DNA of 64,000 nt from Lophium mytilinum (Eukaryota; Ascomycota; Dothideomycetes; Mytilinidiales; Mytilinidiaceae). A model generated the notes under the pieces. It saw only the letters and a program-made list of their open reading frames with translations, did not search any database and had not been told where the DNA came from. The stretch covers positions 62,001 through 126,000 of the forward strand of contig MU004183.1 of NCBI GenBank assembly GCA_010093605.1, read 5' to 3'. Positions 4,690 to 28,014 of the stretch are shown in pieces. Within the stretch, counting starts at the first letter, position 1. Each line of letters starts with the position of its first letter. The translations under genes and the position numbers were made by a program.

Positions 4690-5435
4690 ATGTTTTCTTC
4701 GAACACCTTCAACATCTATACCAGGCCTAGCGCTCCCAACACTACCACGCAGGATACCCCTCTGATATCGCCTACCACTCCCATCAACCGGCCGCGAACC
4801 TCCAGAAAGCGTAAGGCGGAACCTTCTAGTAGTACCAACGCCAACGATCGCACTCCACTCAAAAATCTCGATGGGAACCGACCTTCGAAAAAGCTCAAGC
4901 CCTCCAACTCCAGCGAGAACGAAGCGGACACCACTGCGGAAGAGGTCATGGAAGATGTTCGCCCATCAGCGAAGCATCCTAAAGGTACCTTGGTGCAGCG
5001 TCTTAACGCACGAACTCGGAGGAAGACCGTCCCAAATGGGACTCCAAATACCATTGCTACTTCCAGTGACAGTAAGTCTAGCCCCCATATCCCAGCACAA
5101 GGCATCTCAACTAAACTTCAATAGACGCAACCAACCAAGTCTCAGATGCAACCGATCCATCAGCGATAATCTTTACCTTCAAGCGCGGGAAAAAGTTCCT
5201 GCTGCCGGGGTCGAACGGAGGACCGAAGGGGTACAGTAGCTGGGACAAGAAAACCAATGCGAAGGGGCTTCAGGTCGCTATCGAGAAGCGCGGATTCTTG
5301 GACAGGTTTTTGGGAGGCCGAAACCCGAATCAGATATCGAAGAGAGAAATGATTAATGCTCTCTTGGCCTGGGACATGGACACACTCACTTCCGAGCTGA
5401 AGGTGGAGCTTGAGTCCCGTGGGTATACCTTCTAG
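4690..5435 (+). CDS. Array I copy 1, N-terminal half (unrecognised charged protein)
   Basis: Two exons, 4690-5066 and about 5125-5435, joined by an intron with donor GTAAGT and acceptor AATAG. The spliced frame continues D-N-A-T-N-Q. The product of about 230 residues has a Ser/Thr/Pro-rich N-terminus, basic patches (RKRKAEP, RPSKKLK) typical of nuclear proteins, then two motifs shared with copies 3-5: MED followed by GTLVQRLNARTRRK, and GGPK..W......A...RGF followed by LLAWDMDTL..ELK.EL.SRG. The last part resembles a SAP helix pair, but that is only inference. Translation stops at TAG 5433-5435, exactly where the paralogues continue. The same frame stays open beyond it to 6632, and no intron of usual length removes the stop. 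Function unknown. Confidence 0.6.
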
Positions 5436-6632
5436 GGCTGCGTGAGCCCCGACGAAGTGATCGAGCTGTACCGGAAGGTCGAACATCACATGGAAAAGTG
5501 GGGGGTCAATTACTCTCCTGCACTCTCCCGATTTGACTTCCAGGCCGCGGACGAAAAGTATCGTGCCATGGACTACTTCAAGCTGCTTGATCACGTGGAA
5601 AAGATGTGGGACTACGCGCTGCAGCATTTTCCGGGAAGGGAAATGTTGATTAGGCGCGCAATCACCGACAAATGGGCCGAGTTAATCCCCGACGCCAACC
5701 CTGCCAAAGCTTGGTTCTTGTCAGATCACCCAGCCAGAAAGGCGCCTGTCTTTCCACCTCCTCCCGCAGCGGCATGGCGAGAGCAGTGCACCTTCCGCGC
5801 TTGCTGCCAGGCGTGTGCTCCATTGGAGTCTCTCATGGGAGACGACTTCGAGTTTGGGGACCTTGAGAGTAGCCCTGGGTTCTTTCTTTGCTTTTGGAAA
5901 AGACGGGAAGTTGTGGACTCGGACACACAGATGTCCGACGAGGAAGCCTTGGGTGAGAGCACGGACGATGACAGCGAAGAAGAATCCGAGGACGATGGAG
6001 CAGCTGCCACGACCAACATCCGCCCAAAAGAGCAATCCACCAGGCACCCCCACAACCTCCCCAAAGATGATTACGCAGTGGATTTCGACGTCGAGGCCAC
6101 TGCGGCAAAGTACCGCAAGATGCAGCTCCAGGAGCTCCTTGACCACGTCTCCAAGAAGTGGGCAAGCGCTACCAGCTTGTGGCACGATCGAGACTGGTTG
6201 GTCAGCCGAGCGGTCACGGATGAATTTGCGGCATTGATACCCACCTACGACCCAATCAGGGATTTCTTTTTCCCTGATTCTTCCTATGGCGAGACCGAAG
6301 AAGACCCAATGATTCCGCTAGCACCATGGCGCCATATTTTAGAGATCCAGGGCGCCGACGGCATATGTGAAAGGTGTGCAGCGCTGCATACCTTCGCAGA
6401 CGCAAACGAGCTGGGAGCAATTCTCTCAGTCCCGGTCCATTGCAAGGAGTTCATTGTTCTCGCAACGAAGGAACTGCTCGAGACAAACCGGCGAAACAGG
6501 GAGGCCCAACGTCTCGAGGGGGAGTTCAGTAGAAGGGCTATTCTGTCTGAGACGTCCAAAGATGAGTCTTCTGAGGATGAGGACTACTCTGACGACTTGT
6601 TTGAGGACGAGGAGGAAGAAGAGGAGCTGTAA
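5436..6632 (+). CDS. Array I copy 1, C-terminal half beyond an in-frame TAG; duplicated Cys module
   Basis: The frame of the upstream half stays open for another 399 codons, but there is no ATG before 5490, so this looks like the severed C-terminus of one gene. It contains two tandem copies of a module of roughly 125 residues. Both carry KYR.M....LLDHV.K.W, then RA.TD..A.LIP..[DN]P, then a C-x2-C pair (CQAC and CERC). The module copies are separated by an acidic linker (SDEEALGESTDDDSEEE). The tail is strongly acidic. A single module copy also occurs in the decayed copy 2, which supports N-terminal and module halves having been one protein. I recognise no family. The C-x2-C pair could bind a metal, but that is a guess. 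Confidence 0.55.
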   Translation, partial: GCVSPDEVIELYRKVEHHMEKWGVNYSPALSRFDFQAADEKYRAMDYFKLLDHVEKMWDYALQHFPGREMLIRRAITDKWAELIPDANPAKAWFLSDHPARKAPVFPPPPAAAWREQCTFRACCQACAPLESLMGDDFEFGDLESSPGFFLCFWKRREVVDSDTQMSDEEALGESTDDDSEEESEDDGAAATTNIRPKEQSTRHPHNLPKDDYAVDFDVEATAAKYRKMQLQELLDHVSKKWASATSLWHDRDWLVSRAVTDEFAALIPTYDPIRDFFFPDSSYGETEEDPMIPLAPWRHILEIQGADGICERCAALHTFADANELGAILSVPVHCKEFIVLATKELLETNRRNREAQRLEGEFSRRAILSETSKDESSEDEDYSDDLFEDEEEEEEL

Positions 6633-6871
6633 CATAGCTACAGCTAGTTTGCCTGATCATTTGTATATGGGATGGTTGTTTCTGCGTAGCATTTGCAAGC
6701 GTTTATGTTTTTCTGTTCTTTTGCTTGGCATAGCAGCGTGGGCCTTCTTCTCCTACGCTAACTTAGTAGAATACTGCAACTTATTAATTTCTGTACTCTT
6801 CCTCATTCTATAGCCTATATCCCATCAAAGCTCTACGCTTCATCTTCGGCGTCCGTAGCTTCCTGTGTACA

Positions 6872-8322
6872 ATGCCTTCGCCAACCGGATCCTCCAGTGA
6901 TCTCGCCAGCTCCGCCCGCCTCAGTTTTAAAAAAGTCATCACCTCGACCCCGATTAAATTACCACATAAGACTGTGGCTCCGCGTATGAGTGCGCCTCTC
7001 TCCAATATCTTCAAGAAACGTGGGGCAGATGATAGTTGGTAACATTACGAGTACCAGCGACCTTTCAAGAAGCCAAGAGCTCTTTATGTTAGAGCTATGC
7101 CAATCTCCCTGAGACGTCAACAAGATATTGCGAGAGGCACCAAGATTGCTGAAGCTAACGCAATGGATACTTCCGGAGAATCCGGCGCAGATGAAAATAG
7201 TGTGGATAGCCACATGAATGGTCAGTGTATGCTCAAAGTTTTACCACTGGGACATCTAGCTAATCTCTTCATAGAACCATTCACCACGGCTAAAATGGCA
7301 GTTCAGCGAGAACGACCCACCCATCCTCCCGTGCTTTCCGCAATTTCAAACCCACTCCACGTCTCATTCAAGCATGGTTAATCGTTCTGTCTGCCGGGAA
7401 AACTGGTGACCTGGAGAGAGCCACAACGTGGAAGAAGGATCACAAGAAGCAAGTCCTCAAGCTGGAGATCCAAAAGCGTGGCTTCTGGGACGAGGTGTGA
7501 GGGAGAAGTCTATTCCCACAGTGAACGAGTTGGCGGATTCACTGGCGGCTTGGGAGCTCGACGTGCTTCGTGGGGAAATGATAGCTGAGCTCACATCTCG
7601 TGGCTTCACCAAAACCCTACGCGGTGATATCCTACAGATGGACCCCACTACCTCTCTCATTTCAACTTCGAGAAATGCGCCGAACATTACCGAAAGATGG
7701 GGGAAATCTAAATTTCGATACCACGTCGAAGTGAAATGGGGCAACTCGGCCAAGTTATTCGAGAGCAAGTCCTTGCTCCTCAGCCGCGCGGTCACGGACG
7801 AGTTCGCAGGTCTCAATCCCTCAGAAAACCCAGGTCGATGTTTCTTCGTTTATGGCTTCCTCCCAGAATGAGATATCCCACAAATCGCATCATTCATACT
7901 GCGGCGCCGAAGTTGATTGCACAACGTGTCGCGCTGCCGATGTTCTCTTATCCAGCAACGACTTCGAGAACATGTTCGTTTTCCCAGCAAAATGCGATCA
8001 TCTCTTGATGGTCCGCACAAGAGAGCTTGTATATGAGGGTATCATACCATACCTCGAGGCGACCTTGGACGTCGTTGAAGTCGATTATCAACACAACGAC
8101 GTGGGCAAGGGGGGTGACGAGGAGCAATCTGAAAAGGAGACCACGGGTGGAGTCGATTCGAACTCGGAGGACGAGGAGATGTCAGACGAAGAGGACGACG
8201 AAGAGCCTCGAGAGACGTGGTCGCAGCACATTGGGAGGCTTCTCGACGTTAAGGGTGCCAAGAGAGAGGACCGATTGTCCTACTTCACTGACGCCAAGAA
8301 ATGGTACTCGTTGTTCCAGTAG
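6872..8322 (+). pseudogene. Array I copy 2, decayed
   Basis: Fragments of the copy 1 protein occur in the right order but in different frames. A start at 6872 opens a basic N-terminus that is closed by an in-frame TAA at 7040-7042. After a plausible intron (donor GTCAGT at about 7220, acceptor CATAG at about 7278) comes a piece matching the TW.K......L.IQKRGFWDE motif. A further frame carries LAAWELDVLRGEM..ELTSRGF, and then pieces of one Cys module (HYRKMGEI, LLLSRAVTDEF, CTTCRAAD). It ends in the acidic tail DEEDDEEP...W near 8200. At least three frame changes and two internal stops are needed to account for it. It is a host gene relic, not a mobile element. Closest visible relative is copy 1. 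Confidence 0.65.
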
Positions 8323-9703
8323 CGGTGGAGGCGGAATCAGTTTCTTTGTTTAACCTGTTGAAAGTCTTGCTGGTTTTTCCAATACTTTTTAAAGACCGGG
8401 ATGGAGTAATCATAGTCAAGTCATCATAGTCATGTCCCCAAGTTAGGACCCTGTCATCCGTTGTTATGCTTTCACATGACACCTTAGGCGTTCTTTGTAT
8501 TTAATGCTGCCTTGGCGAATTGGGGGGTTATTTTCGTATCTGTATCTCTTCCTGCTCGGTAGTCTAAAATCCACCAAAAATGGTCTACACCTCATTGTCT
8601 ACGGCTGTGGCTTTGTTGCATCATCAGAACAGCATGAAGGTCCCAATTGATCGCCTTCGCTTCAGTCTCAAGCAAAAAGCCTCTAGTCGTGAGATCTGAA
8701 ATCGCTGTGGATATTGATACAACGATACTAGTAGCAAGACTTCCCGGGATGTTAGCAAGGCCCTAGCGCTTCACCATACATACTTGTTATCGATAGGCGC
8801 TACAAAACGTTCCATATCCTTGCTCCGCCTGCCGGGGGGCGATGGCAGACCGGCGGGCGGGCGGGCGATGCACACGCCACCTACTTTCCATGCGCTTGAC
8901 AACCCGACGCTGTCATTCGGGATCGACTTCCCTCTGCCTACGGTTGGATCGTCCAGACGTCCACACCTCTCTCAATAATACCTGGCTGAACTCGAACCGA
9001 ACCAATCTCCTTCACCTTATTTTGACGCGCTTGAAGACTGATTACTTTAGCAGCCCAGCCTCACAGGCCCATACAATACGTGCATCGCTAAACTTCGCAA
9101 AGAGCGAGAGTTACTTTCTGAAACTTGAGGGGAGCTCTTGGCTTGCTGCATCTCCGTACTTTCCTAACCTAAAATACCCCTGATACCAAGATGGAAGGGC
9201 TCAGCCAAAGAATTCTATTAACTCAACATCGAGGAAATCACAGATGAGTATGGGAATAACACAATTGCCGACGTCCTTTGCCACAAGACCACAAATTTGT
9301 CGAACATCCAGTAAGACCTAGCTATGTTCGCCACTACGAGTCCTCAATTTCTTCTATTCGTTCACAATGTTGAGGCATAGAGTCTAATCGTACCATATTT
9401 ACCAAGAAAGAGGCCAGCCTCGTCAGCCTTGCTACATTGTACGTGCATGTTAGCTAAGACTGGACGGTGAAAGCACTTGACATGGTGAATTAGGGCCCAA
9501 ATCACTTCTGCTCAACGTGTGTATAAAGCCTCCTTCTCTCATCCCCTTAGCTTCTCTCTCTCCACCAACCTCGAAGCCTTCCTTTCAAGACCACTACCCA
9601 CACGCACATCCAGATCTTATTCTCAAGCATCACCTTCAAACCCCTTCTTTCACCACCTTCTCTCAGGATATCTAACAACAACAACACCCTGTCCCGAGAG
9701 CCA
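8323..9703. other. Spacer between array I copies 2 and 3
   Basis: About 1.4 kb without a supportable gene. Short frames at 8784-9183 show no family features. The right end holds the TATA box at 9522 and a C/T-rich leader leading into copy 3. Confidence 0.5.
9522..9527 (+). promoter_or_regulatory. TATA box, array I copy 3
   Basis: TATAAA lies 177-182 bases before the ATG at 9704, followed by a pyrimidine-rich stretch with TCTC runs. It matches in layout the TATA box of copy 1. Confidence 0.45.
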
Positions 9704-11017
9704 ATGGCTTCTTTTCAGTCTCCCTCCTCTTCCATCCCTTCGCCTAAAGTCAAGGCCAACATCGCCATGGCCACTGGCGCCTCTGAAGAGGGTTCTGCGG
9801 ATGCTGTTGGCGAAGAGGGCATCTCTCGATCGGCCACTGTGGTTCCTAAGATCGACTCTACGCCTCAAGAGACCGATCTGCCCCAGCTTAGCACGTACTC
9901 GGCGAAGCGTGACGAAAATAGCGACCAGGACGAAGATCGTCCTCCGACCAAAAAGGCGAAGACAACTAGCAGCAACCCATTCTCTGAGACGGCGAAGTTA
10001 GGAGACGAGGATCTGCCCATGGAGGAGGCCTCTCTGCCGAAGAAGGAGGGCACGTTCGTCCAACAGCTGAACGACATCAAGCGTAAAGCTTCTCAGCGCA
10101 ACTCTGGCAAGAAGAAGGCATCCGACACGGAAGTTATCCCTCGCCCGCCGACCCTAGATGAGGCTTCGGATCAATCCACAGTCGAAGACTTCATGGAAGA
10201 CTTTGACGAGGACTATGCTCCGGAAAAGAAGTCCGCAGTCCGAGCTGCCCCAGCTCCCCGCCAGGCATCAGCTAGGCGCAAGGCGGTTGCAAAGGGTGCA
10301 AATAAAAAGAAGGCTCGTGCTCCCGTCCCCATCATGAGGACACCTCTCGCCATGCCGAAGGAAGAAGGGGGCCCGAAGAAGTTCGTGACGTGGAAAGGCC
10401 TGACCAATGCTAGGCTTGAGGAGGCTATCAAGGCCCGTGACTTCTGGGATGAGTTTATGGACAGCGACGAAGGAGAGACCAAGAAGGCCATGGCGGAGGC
10501 CTTGGTGGAGTGGGACCTGGCAATCTTGAAGGGGGAGATTCGAATGGAGATCGAGGTCAATGGACCCGATTACAAACTACCAGGGCGAGAGGAGACTCTC
10601 GATGAGATGCTAGCCGATCTCCCTGCGAATAAGGTGCCAAAACAGACACTCGATGTCAGCAACCTGCTCGAGGAGTCGGAAGAAGAGAAGGGTGAGCATG
10701 CAGTCGAGGGTGGTGATTTGGAGCAAACATTGCCAACCGAGTCCGGAAATGCCGCCTCAGGTCAGCTTGCAGTCGAGGGTGGTGACTTGGAGCAAATTTT
10801 GCAAACCGAGTCCAGAGAAGCCGCCTCGGGTGAGCTTGCAGGCGAGAGCGGCGAATTAGAGCAGAATGCCCACGCTGAAATCGAAGAATCTGCCTCGGGC
10901 GAGCAAAAGGATGTCCCGGAAGGGGATGACCAATTGGAAGTCTTGACAGAGGATGAACAGATGGAGGTCTCGAATGGGGATGAGCGACTGGAGGTCTTGT
11001 ATGAATGGGAGAAGTAG
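9704..11017 (+). CDS. Array I copy 3, intact unrecognised nuclear-type protein
   Basis: Single exon, 437 residues, no recognised domain. It is highly charged and predicted by eye to be mostly disordered. In order it has a basic patch (PPTKKAKTTSS), the array motif MEEASLPKKEGTFVQQLN followed by KRKASQ, DTEVIPRP, a second basic block (RRKAVAKGANKKKAR), and the core GGPK..VTW......LEEAIKARDFWDEF then EALVEWDLAILKGEI. The C-terminal 110 residues are acidic repeats: three units of about 24 residues around EGGDLEQ..PTES...ASG, then shorter units around QLEV/QMEV/RLEV. The module with C-x2-C seen in copies 1 and 2 is absent. Neighbours are paralogues on both sides. A nuclear location is inferred from the basic patches only. 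Confidence 0.75.
   Translation: MASFQSPSSSIPSPKVKANIAMATGASEEGSADAVGEEGISRSATVVPKIDSTPQETDLPQLSTYSAKRDENSDQDEDRPPTKKAKTTSSNPFSETAKLGDEDLPMEEASLPKKEGTFVQQLNDIKRKASQRNSGKKKASDTEVIPRPPTLDEASDQSTVEDFMEDFDEDYAPEKKSAVRAAPAPRQASARRKAVAKGANKKKARAPVPIMRTPLAMPKEEGGPKKFVTWKGLTNARLEEAIKARDFWDEFMDSDEGETKKAMAEALVEWDLAILKGEIRMEIEVNGPDYKLPGREETLDEMLADLPANKVPKQTLDVSNLLEESEEEKGEHAVEGGDLEQTLPTESGNAASGQLAVEGGDLEQILQTESREAASGELAGESGELEQNAHAEIEESASGEQKDVPEGDDQLEVLTEDEQMEVSNGDERLEVLYEWEK
10690..10905 (+). repeat. 72-bp-class coding tandem repeat in array I copy 3
   Basis: Three imperfect in-frame units of about 24 codons. The shared peptide is GDLEQ / GELEQ followed by TES or EIE and ASGE. The unit size is a multiple of three, so copy-number change would leave the frame open. 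Only the first two units are nearly identical at the base level. Confidence 0.6.
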
Positions 11018-12557
11018 AAGTGATCTTGAAGGAAGAAAAGATTATCCTGACGCAAACTTCATCCTTGTTTTTCTCTCCATGGCCAGAGTCTCATTCATAG
11101 TCGCTATGTGACCTTGATTGAGGCGTCGTATGCTGGTAAAATAGGCTGATGACTTAAAGATCAGAGAACGGATGAAGTAGCAATCATGATTAGTTTGATT
11201 CTTTTGCTATCATAGGCTTGACCTTTTCAATTGTAATAGAACAAATACAAACTCTTTGCCCTATGACTTAGTCCTCAGACTGGATTGATACAAGCGCCGT
11301 GAGATCTTTGAGTTCTAACAATCAACGCTAACAATCAGCACCAGCAGCAAACAGCGATTCTCATGTACCTAATGTCGCATCTTAATATAATACAGATGCT
11401 ACGGCCTGCAATTCAACAGGTATTGAGTCCGGCTTCATTCAATCCTGCCGCCCGAGCCTCAGGTCGTCCGTCCATTCCTTCTTGTACTAATACAGATCTC
11501 CATGCTTTCGTGGATACCTCTTCTGAAGCATGTCTGAATGTTCTCAACTATCGCACACGTAGAATACCAGCCATCACTACGAGATTTCAGACATCATTAC
11601 AGGTTTCCAATCTTCCTGGAACTAACCCACCACACGTATTTATTCACGGTCGGTCGCTCCGTATGACCAATACAAGCTCCTGTCGATCATCGCTGAAAGC
11701 TCTGCATAAAGGAGATTGTCTACCATCATTGCCCGCTGTATGTGCTTGAGGGGCTGTTACGCTATGACATTTCTCTATAGCAATTAATGCTAGCAGCAAA
11801 TATTGGCTCCTACGTACATGAGTTCGCCTTCTAACGTAGTCTTTTGCTATGACCTGCAATACAGGTTTTGAACCTATTCTGTTAGTGTCTACGTTGCATA
11901 TTGTGGATTACAGACGTGTTATTCCGTTGCGCGTAGTTTATGGTAGAGATATAGCTGTATAGAGCACTAACAATCCTTTTATATCATCCATTTGGTTACT
12001 TTGGCGAGCCTCTTCCGATCTTTCCAATCTCTTGAAACTCCCCGCCTCTCCCCCGCAGAACTTAGTTCGCCGCAGAAGTTGGCCAAAAGCGGTTTCTACA
12101 TGGCGCTCATGCCTCTTAGCTTGTATTGTGAGGGCACATCACAAAGTCGACAGCTTCTGGACGCTGAGATGGACTTTTGAGGCCAGGCGCGGAAATGATC
12201 CAAATCATTCACTGACAAGGTAGCGCATTCAGTGGAAAGAATGGGAGGCCTGTGCTTTCATGTCGCTCGCTCCATTGTGCGTGAATGCCGGGCTGCGAGC
12301 GTCGTGGAGCGACATCGAGTGGTGGACGGCTCCGATCTCACAATTGCTTCTCGTGTATTTATAGGGCCCACCACATCCATACTTTCTTCTCCTCACCACC
12401 CTTAGGAACCAGCAACCACCACATCACCACCTGCACTCTTCCAACAACTCTACCACACAGTTCCCGAGACCAACCCAGTTCCCAAGACCAACCCACATCT
12501 CGAAACCAAACTACCACATCCATCTCTTCATTGTCATCGGTACTGTGCTCATTGCCA
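11018..12557. other. Spacer between array I copies 3 and 4
   Basis: About 1.5 kb. The 128-codon frame at 11363-11749 has no conserved motif and no paralogue in the window, so I do not call it. The TATA-like element at 12356 and a CCA/CAC-rich leader mark the promoter of copy 4. Confidence 0.5.
12356..12363 (+). promoter_or_regulatory. TATA-like box, array I copy 4
   Basis: TATTTATA lies 195-202 bases before the ATG at 12558, followed by a long pyrimidine/CCA-rich leader with no ATG until the chosen start. Confidence 0.4.
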
Positions 12558-14459
12558 ATGTCTTCCTCCAATACCTCCGCATCTCCCACCTCTCCTTTCG
12601 CTGCTACATCCAATGCCGGTACCGCCAGACGCAGCGGCGCCGGTCAGCGTCGTACGAGCAGTAGTGGATACAGCGTGGGCTCCAGTGGTGTTCCGCGAAT
12701 GAGCTCATCAGACAACCCGGATACTAGCACCGAGGTGCAGGGTGCATCATCCGATGCTCAAGACAAGAATCGTCCGAATCTAGGTAAACACCAGGTCGAC
12801 GATGACACAGACGAGAACCTCGACCGCCATCCCAAGAAGAAGGCAAAATCAGCTCACACTGGTGGACCAATATCCCTGGGGGACAAGTATGGAGACAAAG
12901 ATGGAGACTCCTCCATGGAGGATGTTGTGCCAGAAAAGAAAGGTGGCAGTTTGTTGCAGCGTCTCAATGCTTCCAAGCGCACTACTGCGAAGTATAGCAA
13001 AAAGGCAGCGAGCGACACTAAAGCCGTTGCTCGTCCAGCCGTCCAACCGAAGAAGGATCTGCCCGTGGAGGAGGATTCAGAAATGGAGTACGTCCCAGAG
13101 AAAGAGGACGAAGATCACGACGCTCCCCATCTCGCAGTACCCGGCCCACCGAGGCAAAAGGCCGCAGCAAAAGGGGCCAACAAGCGCAAGGGTCGTGGCC
13201 CTCGTGGCTACGTGCGGACCCCCTTCGCAATGCCGCGCGAGGATGGAGGCCCAAAGGACGTGTCAACCTGGATGGCCCATTTCCCAAAGGGCAGGCTCAC
13301 CGAAGCTATCAAGTCCCGTGGGTTCTGGGATGAAATCGAAGTCCGTTCCCCAAATCCCACCTGCAAGCAATTGGCGGAGGCCTTGTTGACCTGGGACATC
13401 GCCATGTTGAAAGGCGAGATCCGCGAAGAAATTCTGCTCCACGGCGCAGACCATGTTCATGACGGCCGAAAGGATGAGAAATCCCTTGGTGAAATGCTCT
13501 CGGAACTACCGCCAGACGAAGAGCCAGAGCAAGAAGAAGAAGAAGAAGAACAGGAGCAGGAGGAAGAGAATGAATCGAGCGACGAGCCAATGCCTGAACC
13601 TTTCGAGGGTCCTGACGACGAAGAAGTTGAGCCGCCTATGCCCTCCAGCGAAGCCCAGGTTCAGCGCAATCAAGCATCAGCAACGAACAGAGCAACACGC
13701 TCTCGGCCGATCCCTCGCATGCCCCTGAAGATTTACCCGATGAGGACTGTCGTGAAGCAGGTCAAGACTGTGGTGAACGGTCGCATCTATGAGATCAACA
13801 CGATGAGAAGTGGACATCATGAGGTGAAGACTGTCGCGAACGGTCGTAAGTATACGACGGATTTCCAGAACTGGGAGACTGAACGTATCGTGTGTCCAGA
13901 GGTCTGGATGGCCAACGAGTTCTCCAACTTGATCGCCCTATCAGAGAGAATGGAGAAGAGGAAGGCGGCCGCGAACGCCGGAAAGTCGAAGCAGTCTTCC
14001 CAGCGTAAGCCGCGGGACTGGTCTAAATTCCGTGGTTACCGTTGCATGACTGCACCATGCTGGCTGAAGCTATCGGCCAAGGAACTGCTAGATGCGGCGG
14101 ACAAACGCCTTCACAAGAGCCGTTTGGAGAAACTTTCGCATGAGGAACTTCCATACGTTCTAGCGAAGCAAGAACTCGAGCTCCGGAGGACATTGGCTGA
14201 CAGAAAGCCAACTCCTGATCGCATCAAGAACGTTGAACTCGCGCAGCGAGACTACGACGAGGCGATAGAAGCACGGGAGAAGTCGCAGGCGGATCCGTTA
14301 GGGAGCGTCTATGACTGGCGGCAAGGGATGCCCGCCCCAACGGAAGACTTGAACGAGGGCCTCGAGGATGATATGTTGGCCGCGTTCGGAGCCAACACTG
14401 AACTAGAGCAGAAAGGCAGCCCGGGCCCACTCTTCGAGGATCCTGAAGAGGAGCTATAG
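12558..14459 (+). CDS. Array I copy 4, intact unrecognised nuclear-type protein
   Basis: Single exon, 633 residues from the ATG at 12558. The open frame extends 91 codons upstream, but that part overlaps the TATA box and leader and is low-complexity, so the internal Met (MSSSNTSASP) is the better start. Order: Ser/Thr-rich N-terminus, basic patch RHPKKKAK, array motif MEDVVPEKKGGSLLQRLN followed by ASKR, basic PRQKAAAKGANKRKGRG, and the core GGPK..STW......LTEAIKSRGFWDEI then ALLTWDIAMLKGEIREEI. A pure acidic run (Glu/Gln, about residues 318-340) follows. The C-terminal half has a second shared module with copy 5: LS..EL.DAA.KR......YVLAK.EL. A duplicated segment VKTVVNGR / VKTVANGR lies at about residues 404-435. 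No known domain recognised. Confidence 0.75.
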   Translation: MSSSNTSASPTSPFAATSNAGTARRSGAGQRRTSSSGYSVGSSGVPRMSSSDNPDTSTEVQGASSDAQDKNRPNLGKHQVDDDTDENLDRHPKKKAKSAHTGGPISLGDKYGDKDGDSSMEDVVPEKKGGSLLQRLNASKRTTAKYSKKAASDTKAVARPAVQPKKDLPVEEDSEMEYVPEKEDEDHDAPHLAVPGPPRQKAAAKGANKRKGRGPRGYVRTPFAMPREDGGPKDVSTWMAHFPKGRLTEAIKSRGFWDEIEVRSPNPTCKQLAEALLTWDIAMLKGEIREEILLHGADHVHDGRKDEKSLGEMLSELPPDEEPEQEEEEEEQEQEEENESSDEPMPEPFEGPDDEEVEPPMPSSEAQVQRNQASATNRATRSRPIPRMPLKIYPMRTVVKQVKTVVNGRIYEINTMRSGHHEVKTVANGRKYTTDFQNWETERIVCPEVWMANEFSNLIALSERMEKRKAAANAGKSKQSSQRKPRDWSKFRGYRCMTAPCWLKLSAKELLDAADKRLHKSRLEKLSHEELPYVLAKQELELRRTLADRKPTPDRIKNVELAQRDYDEAIEAREKSQADPLGSVYDWRQGMPAPTEDLNEGLEDDMLAAFGANTELEQKGSPGPLFEDPEEEL

Positions 14460-15820
14460 ACTCCTGCGTAGATCCGATTCTTCTCTTGTTCTTGTTACCT
14501 CTTTGATTTCATTCGTCGACTGTTCCAAAAGGCTACCCGGGAAAGGCTACAAAACGATACTTCGTATAAGCGTTGGTCAGATTTCTGCCACGTGCTTTCT
14601 GCTTTCTGCTATGCGCTCTCTGCCATCTGCTATCTGCTTCCTGCTATGTGCTTTCTGGCTGCTGGTTTCTGTGTTTTGTGTTTATTTTTTGCATATTTTT
14701 GTCCTATACATGCGCGCGTAGCAATGCACAGATACCCCACAAAAAGCCTAATGAATGGTCAAAACTCACACAGCTATTCAAAACTTATATATCTAAGGTC
14801 ATTAGATTAGACATAAAACCACAAAAGACGTTCTAAAATATTACCACTCTCTGAATCTGTGACTTGTATCTCTCATCTCCTGTCATTGATGTTGAACTCC
14901 TGCAATAACACGAATCACACTATATACAAAGCCTAAAAATGGACTCATATATTGCCTTGCTAACGTTTATCTGTCCCAGCTCTACACAGCTCGTGGCGCG
15001 CATATACGGTTTCGGAATCGGCAAGTCATCAAGTCATGCCAAGTCCGATGCGAGGGAATCAAGGCTAACTGTAGATCGATTTGGATCTGCCGAGTAGCTA
15101 ATCGAGCTTCTCCTGACCACGATATTCTGCAGTCAGCACATTAGTCGCATTTGTTTCGGCTGGGATTCGGCCATTGCGGGTTCGGAATTTTATCCAATAC
15201 ATGCAAAGATCCTTCATTATCATATTTCGAACATGAAGCTATCATTGTATAACTATGATGCTCTCTTTCTTCCATCGGCTTAGGCCCCTTTCTCCCCGAG
15301 CCGCAGTTGTCGCTGCGCCCGAGATAGTGACAGTTTGTACTTTATCTATCAGACGAAGGCGCAGATAGGTCATTAGTGGATGACTATGAAAGATTCAGCC
15401 AAACTAAGCCTCTCTACTTATAGTCGTAGATGGTGAAAGGGGTTACTCATTCGCGGTATGACTCTTCAGCTCTAACCGGGTGAGCATTGTGCATAGACGA
15501 AGGTAGAACAGGCGCGCAGCCGCTCTACCTCCGGCACGGTGTAGCATCGAGGCGGCAGTTAGGAGGCAGGCGGCCTGACGCTGTCCGCAGTGAAAGAGGC
15601 CCGTGCACTCACAATGCAGTGAATGCTAGTCAGATTCACCCCTACAGCCTCCATTTAAACCCAACGAGCACACCCGTTCATCATACATCCACCATCGTTG
15701 GAAACCCCACACACACCACTCTCTGCTTATCACCACATCTTCAGTCAAGCTTCAGCAACCCAACCAACACCGCCCCTCGTCCTCACCAATATTTCCTGTC
15801 TCTCTACATCGCCATTCGCA
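14460..15820. other. Spacer between array I copies 4 and 5
   Basis: About 1.4 kb without a gene I can support. It begins with the 3' end of copy 4 and an imperfect CTTTCTG tract (14581-14672). TTTAAA at 15654-15659, 162-167 bases before the ATG of copy 5, is the likely core promoter element, followed by a CACC/CATC-rich leader. Confidence 0.5.
14581..14672. repeat. Imperfect CTTTCTG / CTATCTG tandem tract
   Basis: About ten imperfect 7-9 base units around TTTCTGC and CTATGTG. The tract lies 120 bases after the stop of array I copy 4 and is probably within its 3' untranslated region. Decayed microsatellite; no function assigned. Confidence 0.5.
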
Positions 15821-17836
15821 ATGGCTTCTCCGGCATCTTCTTTCACGGAGACTGCTAGCCCAGCTCGTGGCAAGACAGAGAGCACAGTCGGCACGAAGCG
15901 TAAGCTGCAGACTGTAGACAGCGACGGCAACGATGAGGTCACACCGAAGACTGTGGGTGACAAACGGCCAAAGAAGAGGGTCAAGCCAGCGAGCGAAGCC
16001 GTCCAAAGCTCCTTGAACCCAAACGGTACAACAATTCCAATCTCCTTGAAAGACCGGTATAAGGGTGATGTAGCTATGGACGATGCCTCGGATAAGTCGA
16101 ACGGTAGTTTTATCCAACAGATTAATGCCTCGAAACGCAAAGTCGCTGGATCAAAGTCGAATAAGAAGGATGTTCCGGATACGCAGGCTATTCCGCGTCC
16201 ATCTGCTTCCGGTGAAGTTGAAGAGCCATCTGCGCGCGACGAGTGCGACTCTCCGATGAACGACGCCCAGGAGGAAGACGAGGAAGACAAACCTGCCCCC
16301 CAAAAGGCTCGCAAGGCGGCCGCAAGTAGGCCAAAGACCGACGCAACTGGCGCCAGCAAGCGGAAATTAGATTCGAGCAGAACAACCCTAGCACTGCCAG
16401 GCGAGCCGGGAGGCCCAAAAGCAATCAGTGTCTGGAGACAGAAATGGTACGGCACCGGCTGTGAACAAGCGCTCAAAGACCGCAGCGTATGGGATGATTA
16501 CGTAGTCAACTGGAAACGGTTGGGAATAAAAGTGACCACACAAGTGAAGGCTGAGGCCCTCTACTGGCACGATATCAACGCGCTGAAGGAAGAACTCCAG
16601 GACGAGATCGAGGCTCGTGGTCCTGAGTTTCAATTTCGGGAGGGCAAAACTCTGGCGGAGTGCCTTGCCGGGCTTCCTGTGCAGGAAGAGCAGGAAGAGC
16701 AGGATGTAGCGCCACCGACGACTTCGAAGCCCGTGAAGAAAACTACGGCGCGTCCTAAGGCGAAAACACCCCATCCTGACGAACGTGAAGAGGATGGCCC
16801 GGTTGTTGCTCCATCAACCTCTTTCGAGAAACCTGTGAATGAAAAAGTCACCCCTGCACGGGCTGAAAGTAAGGCGCAGAAAGGAACTGGTCTCCCAAGA
16901 GACGCATCATCGGGAAAGGCCGAGAAGAAACTTTGGAAGTCAAAACCCGTCCATAAATGGGTCTCTCTATCCGAAGAAGAGCTGCGCAAAGCAGCTCGCA
17001 AGCGCCGTGTAGATCTTACGCCGCATCCACAAGAGCAGTGGGCATACCTCCTAGCCAAGCACGACCTCCTAGAGGAGGACAAACCGGTCGAAAACTTGCA
17101 AGGCGAGTTTGATCAGGTTAAGCAGGCAAAGCAGGAAGCTCTAAGTGCGGATGACCGAGATCAAGCATCTCCCAACCTTTCTATCCAATCTGACCACGTA
17201 GAGGTCGAGACTGTTTCCCCGGACGTAATCGCCGAGAGGATGCAGCCAAACGTGCCTGTGGAGAAAGAAGTAGATGTGCCGTCCACCCGTCCCGTCCCGT
17301 CAAAACGCCCAGAATTGAAGAAGTCTCCTTCAAAAGTAAAGCGCAAGTCCTCAAGCGGTGTTACCAAAAACACTTCTTCACGAAAGGCGGAGAAGAATAT
17401 AAGAAGGATAAATGCAGAAAGGCTGATGGAGGCGGTAGAGCAAGAGAACGAAGATGACTGCATCACCCAGGCTTTAGAACAGGCGTTGTCTGGCCCCGAA
17501 GAGGAACAAAACCCAAAGAAAGCACTGGCAGAGGCAGAAAGGCAGTTGAAAGAAAGAGAAGAAGCCGAGGGCAAGAAAGAGTGGATGGAAGAGGTCCAGA
17601 AAGCGATTTTCGACGCCTTGAAGAGAGACCTAGAGGCCGGGAAGCCGGTTGAGCCGGTCGAAAAGCTGGGAGATGGCGGTGGGTCCGAGGAGAAGCTGGT
17701 GAGATTGTTCGCCGGAAAGTCTATCCAGTGGTTCATCTCCAGCCACTACGCGAGTCGTGGTATTCAACTTTCATATAACTGCCCATTTGACCCTGACGAT
17801 GGCGATGATCCGGGCTTTTGGTCGGAGGAAGAGTAG
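15821..17836 (+). CDS. Array I copy 5, intact unrecognised nuclear-type protein
   Basis: Single exon, 671 residues from ATG 15821 (MASPASSFTETAS); the frame extends 41 codons upstream through the leader, which I exclude. Order: basic patches (GTKRKLQ, RPKKRVKP), LKDRYKGDVAMDDAS then GSFIQQINASKRK, DTQAIPRPS, acidic stretch, and the core GGPK..SVWR......ALKDRSVWDDY then ALYWHDINALKEELQDEIEARG. A module shared with copy 4 follows at about residues 385-430: WVSLSEEELRKAARKR then WAYLLAKHDL, which looks like a SAP-type helix pair (inference). A Glu/Lys-rich helical stretch (residues 520-610) could form a coiled coil. The tail ends DPDDGDDPGFWSEEE. No known family recognised; last member of array I. 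Confidence 0.75.
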   Translation: MASPASSFTETASPARGKTESTVGTKRKLQTVDSDGNDEVTPKTVGDKRPKKRVKPASEAVQSSLNPNGTTIPISLKDRYKGDVAMDDASDKSNGSFIQQINASKRKVAGSKSNKKDVPDTQAIPRPSASGEVEEPSARDECDSPMNDAQEEDEEDKPAPQKARKAAASRPKTDATGASKRKLDSSRTTLALPGEPGGPKAISVWRQKWYGTGCEQALKDRSVWDDYVVNWKRLGIKVTTQVKAEALYWHDINALKEELQDEIEARGPEFQFREGKTLAECLAGLPVQEEQEEQDVAPPTTSKPVKKTTARPKAKTPHPDEREEDGPVVAPSTSFEKPVNEKVTPARAESKAQKGTGLPRDASSGKAEKKLWKSKPVHKWVSLSEEELRKAARKRRVDLTPHPQEQWAYLLAKHDLLEEDKPVENLQGEFDQVKQAKQEALSADDRDQASPNLSIQSDHVEVETVSPDVIAERMQPNVPVEKEVDVPSTRPVPSKRPELKKSPSKVKRKSSSGVTKNTSSRKAEKNIRRINAERLMEAVEQENEDDCITQALEQALSGPEEEQNPKKALAEAERQLKEREEAEGKKEWMEEVQKAIFDALKRDLEAGKPVEPVEKLGDGGGSEEKLVRLFAGKSIQWFISSHYASRGIQLSYNCPFDPDDGDDPGFWSEEE

Positions 17837-18963: not shown

Positions 18964-21901
18964 TCACACAGCATGTGATGCGGCATCAACCACAGCGCCC
19001 TTCGGGGACCCTTCTGCAATCTTCTCACTGCCCTCGGAGGTACTCTTCGCCTCCTCGGCAGCCCTCTTCTTTGAGGCCCTCATCTCCACCAACTCGCCCA
19101 ACGTCATCTTTTTGGGAGGAGGACTGGCCTTTGACTCGGAAGCCACGTCTTCCTCACGCTTCCGCTTCTTGGAAGAGCTAAGCTGAATTGCGGGAGGCAG
19201 GGCCAGCGGGGTGAGTACTGGTGAGCCCAGTGCAGTGGGTGAATGTGATGCCAGATGATGTGACTGTGGAAGTGTGACTGGAACTGGTACGCTGGCGGAG
19301 GGAGGCGCTGGACTCGGAGGCGCCTCCGCGTTGCCTTCGTGCAGAGTCTTCTGTGGCAAGCCGGAGCTGTTGACTTTGGGCGATTTAATCGGTCGGGCAG
19401 TCATGCGGAGCTTCTTGGCCGCCGGGCCCTTGCTTTCTGTCTCTTTTTCAACCTCTTCACGGGTGCGCTTGGTTGGCTTGTTGAGTTCGACAGTTCGGCG
19501 AGGCTTTTTAGCTTCACGTTCTGTCGTTCTCTGCTGGACTTCGTCTACATCACGGCCGCGCTTCCTGGACGTGACGGCGACGGTCGTGGTTGGACACGAT
19601 GGAGGGGTAACCGGTGCTGATAGAGCAGATGTGCTCTTGGTGACTTCACCGCCAGTTCCGGGTTTGTTCTTGCGCGGCTTCTCCACTGATGCCTTCGTCT
19701 TTGCGACCCCTTGTAGTTCTTGGACTTTCTCATCCTTGGTGTACTCTCCTTCGGGCTTGTTGGAGGTTCTCTTTTCAACGCCAGGGTCGACGAGCTCTTT
19801 GCCGCAAGCGTTAGGTCTTAGGACCTCGAAGGCGACGAGAAATTCAACCAAGAAGTGCTTGTCTCCATCAACCCTCTTCTGGGCAGTCCCGACGTGTTCG
19901 TAGAACTTCCGACTGAATCCGCCCACCACATACTGAGGGTCACGAGACTTGAAGTCTGGCGATTGGCCCGTCGTCAAAGGTCGGAGCTTGCAGCAGATTC
20001 GCCATAGCTTGGCGATGAAAGCAGTGTCTTCCAAGTGTGCTGTGATCCGTTGCTTAACGTCTTTCCTGAGAACACTGTACTCAATCTTGGCGAAAGCTTT
20101 TCGTTCAGAGCTTGCAGTCTTCTTGAATGATGTTTGGACTGCTTTGCTGATATGACCCTGGCTTTCTTTCTTGTCTTCAGATCTCACGTGGCCTCGCACA
20201 GACCCGGCGGTTGCGACACCACGCGCTTTCTTGACAGGAGCATCTTCAGGACCCTTGAGATGCTTAGGCTTCATCGAGGCAGCCCTCTCGTCTCCATTCT
20301 CAGCTGTTGGAACCTTATGGCTGGGAGATGCTTCCAAGATATTCTCCTCGGCGTGCACTACGATATCGAGCGTGTCGTAGAATTGGAGGAGCGCGACCGC
20401 AAAGTCTTTGTCTCGCCTGGTGCCGCCGATATGTTTTGCACACTTCTGTCTAAGAAGCTGTTTCAGCCAGGCGGCACCACGAGAAGTGAAGTGGGTGCCC
20501 GTATTTTTCGTCGGGCGTGTCTCGTGGCAGAACTTCAACAACGAAGTCACAACAGCCACATCATTACCAAGACCCATGATCCTTTTGGCACACTCCTCTT
20601 TGAGATCCTGGAAGTCTTTCTTCGCATAGCTTCCAGTGATGTCCTCAACGGCGCTATCATTTTCGGGCCCATTGCCTCTAGTTACACCTCCATGATCGTT
20701 GTCCTTGTCTTCCATAGGAAGGCTCTTTTCCGCCGAGGCTGATCGAGCGGCTTGCTGAAGTTGATGTTTGACGTATGCTTTGCTGAAGGTGATGAACCCT
20801 TGGCTGTTGCGCTGTGGTCTGAGCTCGTAGTAGTATTTGAGGAATTCGAGCATAAACTTCATGTCTCCTGGAACTCTGTTTCGCTTCGAGACTCCAACGT
20901 ATCTCTCATACCTGTCCCGCAGCCGAGTATACAAGTAATGGAAGTCACCCGTCTTTTTCTTGTCGTAGGCCCGGCCTTCAGAGCGTCCCAATTGGCATGC
21001 GCATTCCAGGAGATTGATCAAAAGCTCCGAATCCTTCAAATCGACATCGATGCACAATTTGTTGTAGAAGATCAACCTGAGCGCTTTGAGCTGCTCCCAG
21101 TCTGGGTCTCTAGACTTAGAGGTACTCTTGGCGCCTTTCTGCTTGTCCCCGGAGACTTCGGATTGCGCATCGCTGCCTGCTCGGGTGTTCGACTCATCGC
21201 CGCGCTTGTCGTCCGCAAAAGGATCGTAGGACTCGAGTGTACAATCAGTGTCCCAGTCACCGATCTTGTTCTGAAGGTCGAACGAGACAATGCGGTCAAT
21301 GAGGTTACGCTTTGTAGTGGACTTAGGATAGGTGATGCCATCACGATCGCACAAGGCTCGGAGTTGGGGCAGGGTGTAGTCCTTGTTGTACTCTTTCGGG
21401 TCGAGGGGGCGGATCGGGAGTTCATCTTCATCTCCAAAGACGTTAGTCGAAGACAGCTAGCATAGTGAATGAGGATACGTACTAGATTCGGAGTCGCCGG
21501 ACTTCTTCACAACCTTGATCGCGACACCTCGGCGATTGGACGTGTCTCCGCCGCCGTGTGGGCCTGCGCGTGTGTTCGTCAGGTCTCGGAGGACAGGGCG
21601 ATCCGAGTCCTATCATAACATCATGTTAGCCTTGGGTGAAACGCGTGTCAATGTCAAGCTATCGTGGCATGCTAAAGGCATGGTGGCAGGGTGAAAGATA
21701 TTGGGATAGGGAGCGCGCGACAGGAGCGGCAACGGTAAAGCGAGGGGGAGGCATCCGATGACAGAAAAGGAGCTTACGGCAGTGGATCGGAGAGTCCCTT
21801 GGGCGACGGGGCGGTTCCCTGCGAGACCTTGGTCAGCGCGACAGTCATCGAAATCATCGGCTATGTGGCGGAGACGTACCTTTGGTTGTGCGGGGATTCA
21901 T
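18964..21901 (-). CDS. SAP-domain protein with six helical repeats, 885 residues
   Basis: Four exons: 21880-21901, 21778-21818, 21483-21609 and 18964-21431. All junctions keep the frame with GTACGT, GTAAGC and GTACGT donors, giving MNPRTTKGNRPVAQG at the start. Residues 83-112 are a canonical SAP DNA-binding motif: YTLPQLRALCDRDGI followed by TKRNLIDRI. Six copies of a helical motif follow, paired in three blocks at about 174-269, 337-420 and 515-603. Its core is D..F...LL.F...LRP; examples are DMKFMLEFLKYYYELRP, DTAFIAKLWRICCKLRP and DKHFLVEFLVAFEVLRP. The C-terminal third is basic and Pro/Ser-rich with KR clusters (SRKRGRDVD, KKRKREEDV). DNA binding in the nucleus is a fair inference from SAP; the repeat and the role are unrecognised. 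Confidence 0.75.
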
Positions 21902-24187: not shown

Positions 24188-25537
24188 CGCAGCGTGATTT
24201 GGCGTGTGGCATCTTGGCGGGGTGGTCTTGTTCTATACCAGCATTGCGGAGTTTGGGAGTTGGTCCCAAGGCCGGAGCATCGCGCATTTGCGTAGGTCTA
24301 CTTATCAGCAGACTTTAATTGAGCGTATGTGCAGTTTTCGTGTACCTTTAGTGGTGAAACTGGATTTGGATGCATCTACGCTACCTATAATTTCTCTACC
24401 GACTACTTTCGATACAGCATGACAATCCCGATGTTCAACTTAGTTTCGGCACTAATTTCGGGCGAAATGGCATCCAACAGGGTACTTTGAGCTCCTGAGA
24501 GAGCCGTTATCATGGGTAGTACTATGCTACCGCAGGACGCTGAAGCCATACCAGGGATTCCGCATTCGCTGAGAACATCAAGCATCCCCATATACCTTTT
24601 CAATCTGATAAAGTGGAGATCGAGGATGTTTCCAGGGACGTAATCGGTGCCCGTGATGGCAGCAGTCTAGTCCAACTCATGTCGCAACCGCTTACCGAAG
24701 GACGACCTTCAAACGATCAGACCGGCTGCTGACATCGGACAGATCCCTACATGCCCCTGTATGGTGTATCTAGATATTTACATGGACGTCGAACGCAGCG
24801 CTACGTAGTTTCCATATTTAAAGCTCTGCATAGATCCACAGAACTCTACTACGCATGTTTTCCAGGCTTCTTCAGCAATTCATCTTTCTCAAGGCTCTCC
24901 CAATCAGCTCCTTCGATTGGGAGCCTTCCCAGTTCTTTCAACACACCGCGAGTCCAGTAGATCTCACATTTACCCTTCCCCGTTGACGGGCAGGCCTCCA
25001 CTCGTCACCATCCTCGTCACAGCCTACTCTTAAGACCCCTTTCAGTCTACACTACCCTACCTTCTACCTTTAAGATATATTTGACAGCTAAGCTTTGCAT
25101 CGTCGCCATCCCCATCTCCACACATTCCTAAGACCTCACTTCGTACAATCGAAACCTACCTCACGCCTCTATAGCGGCTATTCCGCGCTGCTCTAATTAT
25201 CCTTACTACAGCACGGTCTCATCAACTACTTTGAAGCACCAGCCTGGTCTATCAGCCATACAGGCATCAAGCCAACACTTGCTTGTTGCTCAATCATACA
25301 CCTCATATCCTCACCAACTGAAGAAAGTTTGTGGCACTGCGGATGAAGTTAGTCGTGCTGCTTCATTTCCATTCAAAGTCGATTCCAGAACTCATATCGG
25401 CCTCCAATCAGCTTCTTCAACCTCATCCCTCTCCCATCTCAAGGATTAATCACGACCTCACAAATTCGCGACTTAGGCACTCCAGTAATGCAAAGCGGAT
25501 CTCCGAAGATCAGATAAAAACCTTACCTACGTCCATC
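24188..25537. other. Spacer between ARL1 and array II copy A
   Basis: About 1.35 kb. TATTTAAAG near 24812-24822 and the following C/T-rich stretch look like the promoter and leader of copy A. The short frames at 24751-25449 have no family features. Confidence 0.45.
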
Positions 25538-26506: not shown

Positions 26507-28014
26507 TATGATATCCTCTGATTCAGATGGCAGCTCGGGCCGGCTATTCAAGATTTCTCATACTCTTCCCATCTCTACTTGCCGGACCCCTTCCTATGAT
26601 TTCATGCTTTGTACATTTTACAACCTATTGCTCATTCTTCTTTGGATCTTCTTTCATCCGAACCTACAACCCTTCCTGTCCTGGCAATTAGGCAACACCC
26701 TCACTATGACGCACTGCAATAGTCATATGGCGAGACTAGAGCGCGATGTTGCCAAAGATCGCAATATGGATCCAGAATTCAACCTCGCGTTGAGCAGTAG
26801 GGACTGATGACCTAGACATGCACCTATCCAATACCCTTCTCAGTCACAATTTCCTTCCGGTATTGGTGTCCCGGCAGCCTATAATAGCCCGCTCCGTGGC
26901 ACCTTAGGTCGAGCATCGACTACAACTATCTTTGACTGGTCATTCAGATTGCTTCGGACCAAAAAAACCTTGCACCTATTCAGAATGCGAATCTCCCATA
27001 AACAATACCCTCAAATATGGCGACATCATTTCCCCATCTCTTTTTGTACTACGATATCACATTGCTTCAAGATCAACATTTCCATGAGTGCCATTTGAGT
27101 TTTCCTTGCCTAATCTCATCTGGGATCTTGCATCTCTTCGGGGGATTACACAGGCCAGAAAGTAGGGTGTGCCGGTATCAATGGTTCCTCCTGGCACATT
27201 CTTATTTGGTGCATTCGTCATAGCGTGATGAATCTCAGCCTCTTCCTCCTTTTCTTTTCCCAGCAAGTAAGTTCAATTCCTCAACGAAAGTCTAGATTAT
27301 CCACCACATCGTGAGAAGCCATGAAAAGCCCTACGTGCGTGAAAACTCGTCGATGTAGTCTTTGAATAAATCGACACGTCAGCGGGCAACGTTGATAAGT
27401 TTCCCGGGGGCGCACTCCGTCCATCTCACTCTACCAACGAACCTCTCCGTTTCCAACCACACTTCATCGCTCTCAACATCTCTATTCTCTGAATGCTTCT
27501 GAAGGTATATCAAATACATTTGCCCGTTGCGTTACCGCAATGAGAAGTACCAGGGCGACCTTACATCCCTATCAAAACGTTATCTGACCGCTTCCTCCGA
27601 TCGAAACACATGGTCTTATCACCTCGGGTCGATCCATTGTATCCCATTCCAGCGACCTCACTTGATCAACACCGGTATAACCTTTCTTCTATCTCAGCCC
27701 CAGGCTAGCGCGCTATCGCGTATCCTCACTTGCCCCACAATCATACAAACGCACGAACGTTTTTGCACCGCTACAACTTCCACCTTACCCTCAATAGTAT
27801 CAGCCTAGCCCTCCTCTTCACAAACGCAGCTGGTTTGAACTCCAGACCTCGCCCTGCCATCGTAGCTTCTCTCCTCACTTCTTGGAGCAAGCCCGGACCC
27901 AACAGCATCGGCTAGCGCATGCCGAAGCAGCCCCTAAATCGTCGGTTCTCATTGTCCGCGATTCGATCGATCTACATCGTTCCTCGGCATTAGCATCTAC
28001 CTACCCAACCAAAG
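26507..28014. other. Spacer between array II copies A and B
   Basis: About 1.5 kb. No gene can be supported; several frames of 60-110 codons lack conserved features. The 500 bases before 28015 are pyrimidine-rich and form the leader/promoter of copy B. Confidence 0.45.

Follow-up and report, generated by a model that had tools for sequence, protein, structure and literature searches.

The SAP domain, to which the Rho_N domain is related, offers the closest described counterpart of the protein family reported here. According to PMC9399289, the glycine in the loop that precedes helix 2 of the SAP domain is invariant, and the SAP domains of SDE2 and SAFB2 are described, in the same source and in PMC9958909, as having one more helix at the N-terminal side. 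TbSAP of Trypanosoma brucei is reported in PMC8034637 to be a nuclear SAP protein silencing telomere-linked genes. The present study concerns a stretch of 64,000 nucleotides from the fungus Lophium mytilinum (assembly GCA_010093605.1, contig MU004183.1, positions 62,001–126,000, forward strand), designated hereafter as the window, in which a preliminary description, made from the sequence alone, had pointed to an array of five tandem paralogues belonging to no described family. These five copies and a sixth one lying outside the window may represent an old, locally duplicated nuclear family with a diverged SAP-like core and a docking or adaptor role, a reading for which we see about equal chances of being right and wrong. 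Plain positions refer to the window, whereas those with the prefix C3: refer to the whole contig, the window corresponding to C3:62001-126000.

Members of the family and their layout

The copies, numbered from 1 to 6, and their parts are as follows; the start codons are our own choice and are thus putative.

4690–5071, + strand: copy 1, exon 1, putative, from a chosen ATG; N-terminal disordered-looking part with the basic motif and the MED...LN motif
5072–5124, + strand: copy 1, intron of 53 nt (GTAAGT...TAG), predicted from splice signals and frame
5125–5435, + strand: copy 1, exon 2; core at 5217–5432, with an in-frame TAG (5433–5435) at the end
5436–6632, + strand: copy 1, Cys tail; open frame beyond the TAG that contains two versions of a module and has its homologue in copy 6
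7387–8319, + strand: copy 2, dead; core pieces 7387–7503 and 7515–7625 in different frames, Cys module 7722–7850, then another frame
9704–11017, + strand: copy 3, 437 residues; core 10367–10630, tail repeats 10691–10897
12558–14459, + strand: copy 4, 633 residues; core 13245–13517, second helical-looking stretch 14043–14261
15821–17836, + strand: copy 5, 671 residues; core 16409–16684, second helical-looking stretch 16940–17116
24577–24646, + strand: relic that matches the tail of copy 5 at 76% across 75 columns (E 2.9e-7)
C3:51918-53264, − strand: copy 6, 449 residues, with the core and the Cys module joined in a single open frame; it lies to the left of the window, at a distance of 8.7 kb

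Inspection of the frames bore out the head-to-tail arrangement of the five copies, all on the + strand, with copies 3, 4 and 5 being single open frames. Copy 6, found by searching the genome with the Cys tail of copy 1, had escaped the preliminary description, and so had the relic of the copy 5 tail. The motif M[ED][DE]...G[ST][LF][VIL]Q[RQ][LI]N was found by scanning once in each of copies 1, 3, 4 and 5, as had been claimed, and is absent from copy 6. The motif [ND]RPxKKx[KR] is present in copies 1 and 6, with a looser version in copy 3 and, by eye, basic stretches resembling it in copies 4 and 5. The tails proved to be as diverse as described. That of copies 4 and 5 has the second helical-looking stretch in common, with 39% identity; taking it for a repeat of the core or for another SAP domain was rejected, the hhalign probabilities being 0.2% and 0.7% and the score being reached by 182 of 300 and 51 of 200 shuffles. 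A promoter layout common to the copies, with a TATA element 160–240 bases before the ATG, could not be upheld: TATAWAW occurs in copy 1 only, at −247, the weaker TATA[AT] being located at −182 in copy 3 and at −210 and −58 from the assumed ATG of copy 2, and no TATA was seen within 400 bp upstream of the chosen ATGs of copies 4, 5 and 6.

The genome searched comprises 43.2 Mb in 24 contigs, so that "local" means here this locus within one genome. The searches, run exon by exon on the best candidates, used as queries the core of copy 3, copies 5, 4 and 6, and the tail of copy 1; copy 3 was thus represented by its core alone, and copy 1 by its tail. No further convincing member was revealed with these queries, all the convincing matches in this single genome being confined to one stretch of the same contig. 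Two matches on a different contig—C2:1719140 to residues 317–384 of copy 4, an acidic stretch (E 0.002), and C2:1053350 to copy 5 (E 0.7)—were taken as compositional. Among the titles and abstract openings listed in literature searches, none describes the family.

Paralogy, age and constraint

The cores of copies 1, 3, 4 and 5 can be aligned with 15 invariant columns. In the comparison with shuffled sequences proposed in the preliminary description, all ten pairs among copies 1, 3, 4, 5 and 6 exceeded their shuffles, with local-alignment z values from 5.4 to 36 and the observed score reached, for each pair, by none of 500 shuffles; the cores are paralogous. Concerning the parts preceding GGPK, those of copies 3, 4 and 5 are clearly related to each other (z 12.4–23), and that of copy 1 is related to copies 4 and 5 (z 4.9 and 4.6, none of 500 shuffles) and weakly to copy 3 (13/500 shuffles as high). 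The corresponding part of copy 6 is weakly similar to copy 1 (2/500) and unlike copies 3, 4 and 5 (75, 411 and 262 of 500 shuffles as high, respectively). A family that would have arisen by local duplication, and in which one copy has died, is supported.

The proportion of synonymous differences (pS, 0.59–0.84) is higher than that of non-synonymous ones (pN, 0.32–0.49) in ten of ten core pairs. Since the core dS, i.e. the synonymous divergence, ranges from 1.17 to beyond the range of the formula, the duplications appear to be old. The ratio of non-synonymous to synonymous divergence (dN/dS) is ~0.5–0.66 for those four pairs whose dS is under 1.6, values given without a significance test, which therefore suggests weak constraint; as estimated from the sequences, the constraint on the cores is weak to moderate. 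The "fast change" ascribed to the array may or may not apply: the dN/dS of the four pairs agrees with it as far as weak constraint is concerned, whereas the dS indicates that the copies are old.

The core and the SAP domain

An AlphaFold model of the copy 3 core, based on five sequences, is a confident small helical fold, with a predicted local distance difference test score (pLDDT) of 89 and a predicted template-modelling score (pTM) of 0.73. Helices are predicted at residues 6–10, 14–23, 27–32, 39–65 and 78–84, the helices 14–23 and 39–65 being joined by a loop with the short helix 27–32, to be compared with the helix, extended loop and helix of the SAP domain, which together span ~35 residues. 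In the model of copy 6, residues 1–60 of the core exhibit pLDDT of 78–94 in ten-residue blocks, while the Cys module is of low confidence; it should be noted that in the alignment behind this model the rows of the copy 1 tail are partly misaligned against the core, the alignment behind the copy 3 model being free of this.

For the comparison at the level of profiles, a SAP profile was made of 11 SAP domains from the same genome, out of 19 PF02037 matches (14 over the cut-off, three of these omitted). As a control, it retrieves Tho1, MKL1, SIZ1 and other SAP chains from PDB (9 sequences, E ≤ 0.01). Against the profile of the five cores it aligns helix on helix with a score of 19.1, reached by none of 300 column shuffles, the reversed core scoring 10.2. 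With the core of copy 6 by itself the score is 25.4 (61%), a value that none of 1000 residue shuffles attained. The background consisted of 214 windows of 97 residues taken from 26 other long open reading frames (ORFs) of the 126 kb region, these being frames and not verified genes; copies 6, 3 and 1 taken singly (25.4, 17.7 and 16.9) are above all of them, the best one scoring 15.8. Omission of copy 5 raises the score of the family profile to 22.3 (34%). Based on these sequence comparisons, the core is probably descended from, or works like, a SAP domain.

Several results weigh against such an assignment. The hhalign probability of the five-core profile against SAP is only 13%, and 3 of 400 block shuffles of the core profile reach the observed score (best 23.5). 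Copy 1 aligns with the SAP profile across 15 columns only; copies 4 and 5, taken singly, are not above the background, with 57 and 12 of the 214 windows as high; and the family profile deprived of copy 6 scores 13.3 (1.2%), within the background range, i.e. the match relies on copy 6. The five-core alignment has no conserved glycine column that would correspond to the invariant loop glycine of SAP. Pfam gave no hit of any kind to the five cores at E ≤ 10. The core profile searched against PDB sequences gave 6 rows with no SAP chain, and the core of copy 6 gave none. Foldseek of the copy 3 core against PDB returned 25 rows, none of them named SAP and none significant; in a viral library, the 50 best of 80 rows contained one row each named SAP and Rho_N, with E > 5 in either case. 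The dN/dS values given above belong to the same side of the balance.

It is therefore possible, if on the doubtful side, that the core is a helical protein–protein interaction domain without SAP ancestry, its match to SAP having come about by chance from a pair of amphipathic helices separated by Lys/Arg. The probability of 13% for the whole profile, the reliance on copy 6, the 3 of 400 block shuffles, the lack of SAP hits in the searches of Pfam and of PDB sequences and folds, and the missing loop glycine speak for such a domain; it agrees less well with three of the five copies singly outscoring every one of the 214 background windows, with the low score of the reversed control, and with the predicted helix order including the extra N-terminal helix, which corresponds to that described for the SAP domains of SDE2 and SAFB2.

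Returning to the family as one with a diverged SAP-like core, the earlier statement that it represents no described family holds in so far as nothing in Pfam exceeds its cut-off, but the core probably represents a helical domain of SAP-like type that has diverged. The SAP PF02037 cut-off of 23.9 bits is reached neither by the five cores nor by the longer proteins, exon 1 of copy 1 lying outside the scan; since, in addition, the loop glycine is not conserved, the core is not filed here as a SAP domain. For the longer proteins, Pfam returned only sub-threshold rows, namely Mlh1_C with copy 5 and HTH_62 and NOA36 with copy 6, and a scan of NCBIfam gave nothing above cut-off. A second SAP domain in the second half of the core was considered and rejected (1.9%), the first and second halves compared with each other giving 14% over 23 columns, a value without a null distribution. 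The Foldseek rows of the copy 6 model, which is mostly of low confidence, had 14-3-3 proteins at the top, with a best E of 0.3, and were regarded as noise.

Damaged copies

The dead copy recognized in the preliminary description is copy 2, the core of which lies in two frames (7387–7503 and 7515–7625), the first piece being interrupted by a TGA, and the Cys module of which shifts frame near 7850. Copy 1 has the in-frame TAG immediately after the core. Copy 6 matches residues 188–369 of the copy 1 query across a single TAG (38% identity, E 2.5e-22), and a scan for phase-keeping GT-AG introns of 40–150 nt, with donors from 5330, found no candidate removing this TAG, so that an intron concealing it was dismissed. 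Because copy 6 aligns through the TAG and no tested intron takes it out, copy 1 looks truncated: judging from the alignment, it probably once had the core and the Cys tail in one protein, which the TAG now terminates after the core. The same alignment running through the TAG would also fit an intact copy 1, with the TAG read through, edited or due to an assembly error, all the more as no other lesion was noticed in this frame, which is open over the rest of 5115–6632; set against the outcome of the intron scan, we consider this rather unlikely.

Repeat-induced point mutation (RIP) was rejected as a cause of the divergence or death of the copies, no RIP window being present among the 126 windows of one kb into which the 64 kb were divided and the composite index of copy 2 being −0.59.

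Proposed role

The family had been regarded as probably nuclear, which remains plausible, as the core resembles a much-worn SAP DNA-binding fold; the basic motifs and the acidic tails are consistent with it. In the intact copies, a likely nuclear localisation signal in the lysine-rich N-terminus, itself probably disordered, would direct the protein to the nucleus. The core of ~60–90 residues—predicted as a short N-terminal helix, a helix, a loop and a long second helix, strongly diverged but SAP-like—would most likely provide weak nucleic-acid binding or chromatin docking by analogy with SAP domains. The tails vary and are mostly acidic, with a Cys-containing module in copies 1, 2 and 6; being exchangeable, they could recruit different partners. 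With the docking core shared and the partners of the tails differing, each copy would therefore be a variant adaptor.

The second family and the surroundings of the array

A second family of frames is located at the same locus:

C3:53738-55642: long frame
C3:56769-57101: shorter match
C3:59077-61539: long frame
18964–21456 (= C3:80964-83456), − strand: long frame, stop to stop; SAP/Rho_N-like stretch at 21259–21411

Each of the three members on the left is clearly linked to another of them by one comparison or more (E 1e-17, 4e-13 and 1e-4), the member in the window being more weakly related (E 1e-4 and 0.002). The aligned SAP-like stretches of the three long frames reach an hhalign probability of 86% against the SAP profile, the score being attained by none of 200 shuffles; in Pfam, the window member has sub-threshold Rho_N and SAP hits. 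By eye, the frames also have a recurring F..ELRP-type unit in common. The two families are interleaved within ~32 kb. Their SAP-like parts compared with each other give 14% over 19 columns, and a common origin of these parts, as seen from the sequences, is possible.

Concerning the contig end, the AT-rich region C3:1-33 kb is RIP-like in 10 of 11 three-kb blocks (composite 0.31 to 1.59), with a GC-normal island at ~15–18 kb (composite −0.58). Runs of two or more TTAGGG/CCCTAA are absent from the first 62 kb of the contig. Two paralogous long ORFs, C3:17235-18095 and C3:37347-38315 (33% identity over 270 residues, E 9e-47), are present near the same contig end. To the right of the array, the window contains between 25322 and 40271, on either strand, a number of long frames whose appearance by eye is that of coiled coils; those at 27994–30111 (+) and 38391–40271 (−) have weak, below-cut-off RING matches near the C-terminus.

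The position of the array near a RIP-degraded contig end raises the alternative that it is for the most part an orphan cluster in decay, with hardly any function left, if any. The dead copy 2, the TAG after the core of copy 1, the relic at 24577, the RIP-like indices over C3:1-33 kb except 15–18 kb and the weak constraint in some pairs would all suit it, but copies 3, 4, 5 and 6 have retained frames of 437, 633, 671 and 449 residues, pS exceeds pN in every core pair, and the copies themselves are without RIP signal, which makes it quite improbable.

Taking the adaptor role of the family further, the first family (six copies, of which one is dead and another carries a stop) and the second one (three long frames and a shorter match) might together form a single locus of two interleaved SAP-like nuclear families near the RIP-degraded contig end, not found elsewhere in the genome—locally grown chromatin or RNA adaptors using one worn nucleic-acid-binding fold with swapped tails. 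We offer this only tentatively and would not expect it to hold as a whole. An unnamed local family is in itself not unusual; the point here is that the fold is probably a worn known one. If this is true, it would illustrate how tandem duplication can provide a fungus with nuclear nucleic-acid-binding families of its own, past recognition by profiles; the "orphan" array would become a testable DNA- or RNA-binding hypothesis, and the counts of orphans in such fungi may contain worn versions of known folds.

Comparison with known systems

With the SAP domain (PF02037; Tho1, SAF-A, SAFB, PIAS/SIZ1, SDE2), the predicted core appears to share the helix–loop–helix order with the extra short N-terminal helix, the Leu/Arg pattern of helix 1, the Lys before helix 2 and the disordered-looking basic flanks. 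It differs in having no Pfam match and no invariant loop glycine, as well as in a loop with its own short helix (copy 3) and a very long second helix, the proteins being further distinguished by the GGPK-W lead-in and by the Cys or acidic tails. Rho_N (PF07498) is approached by the neighbouring second-family protein, at a sub-threshold 16.5 bits (cut-off 24.9), whereas the core of the first family gives no Rho_N hit. TbSAP, as reported in the source cited above, may serve as a precedent and a lead for the function of the array family.

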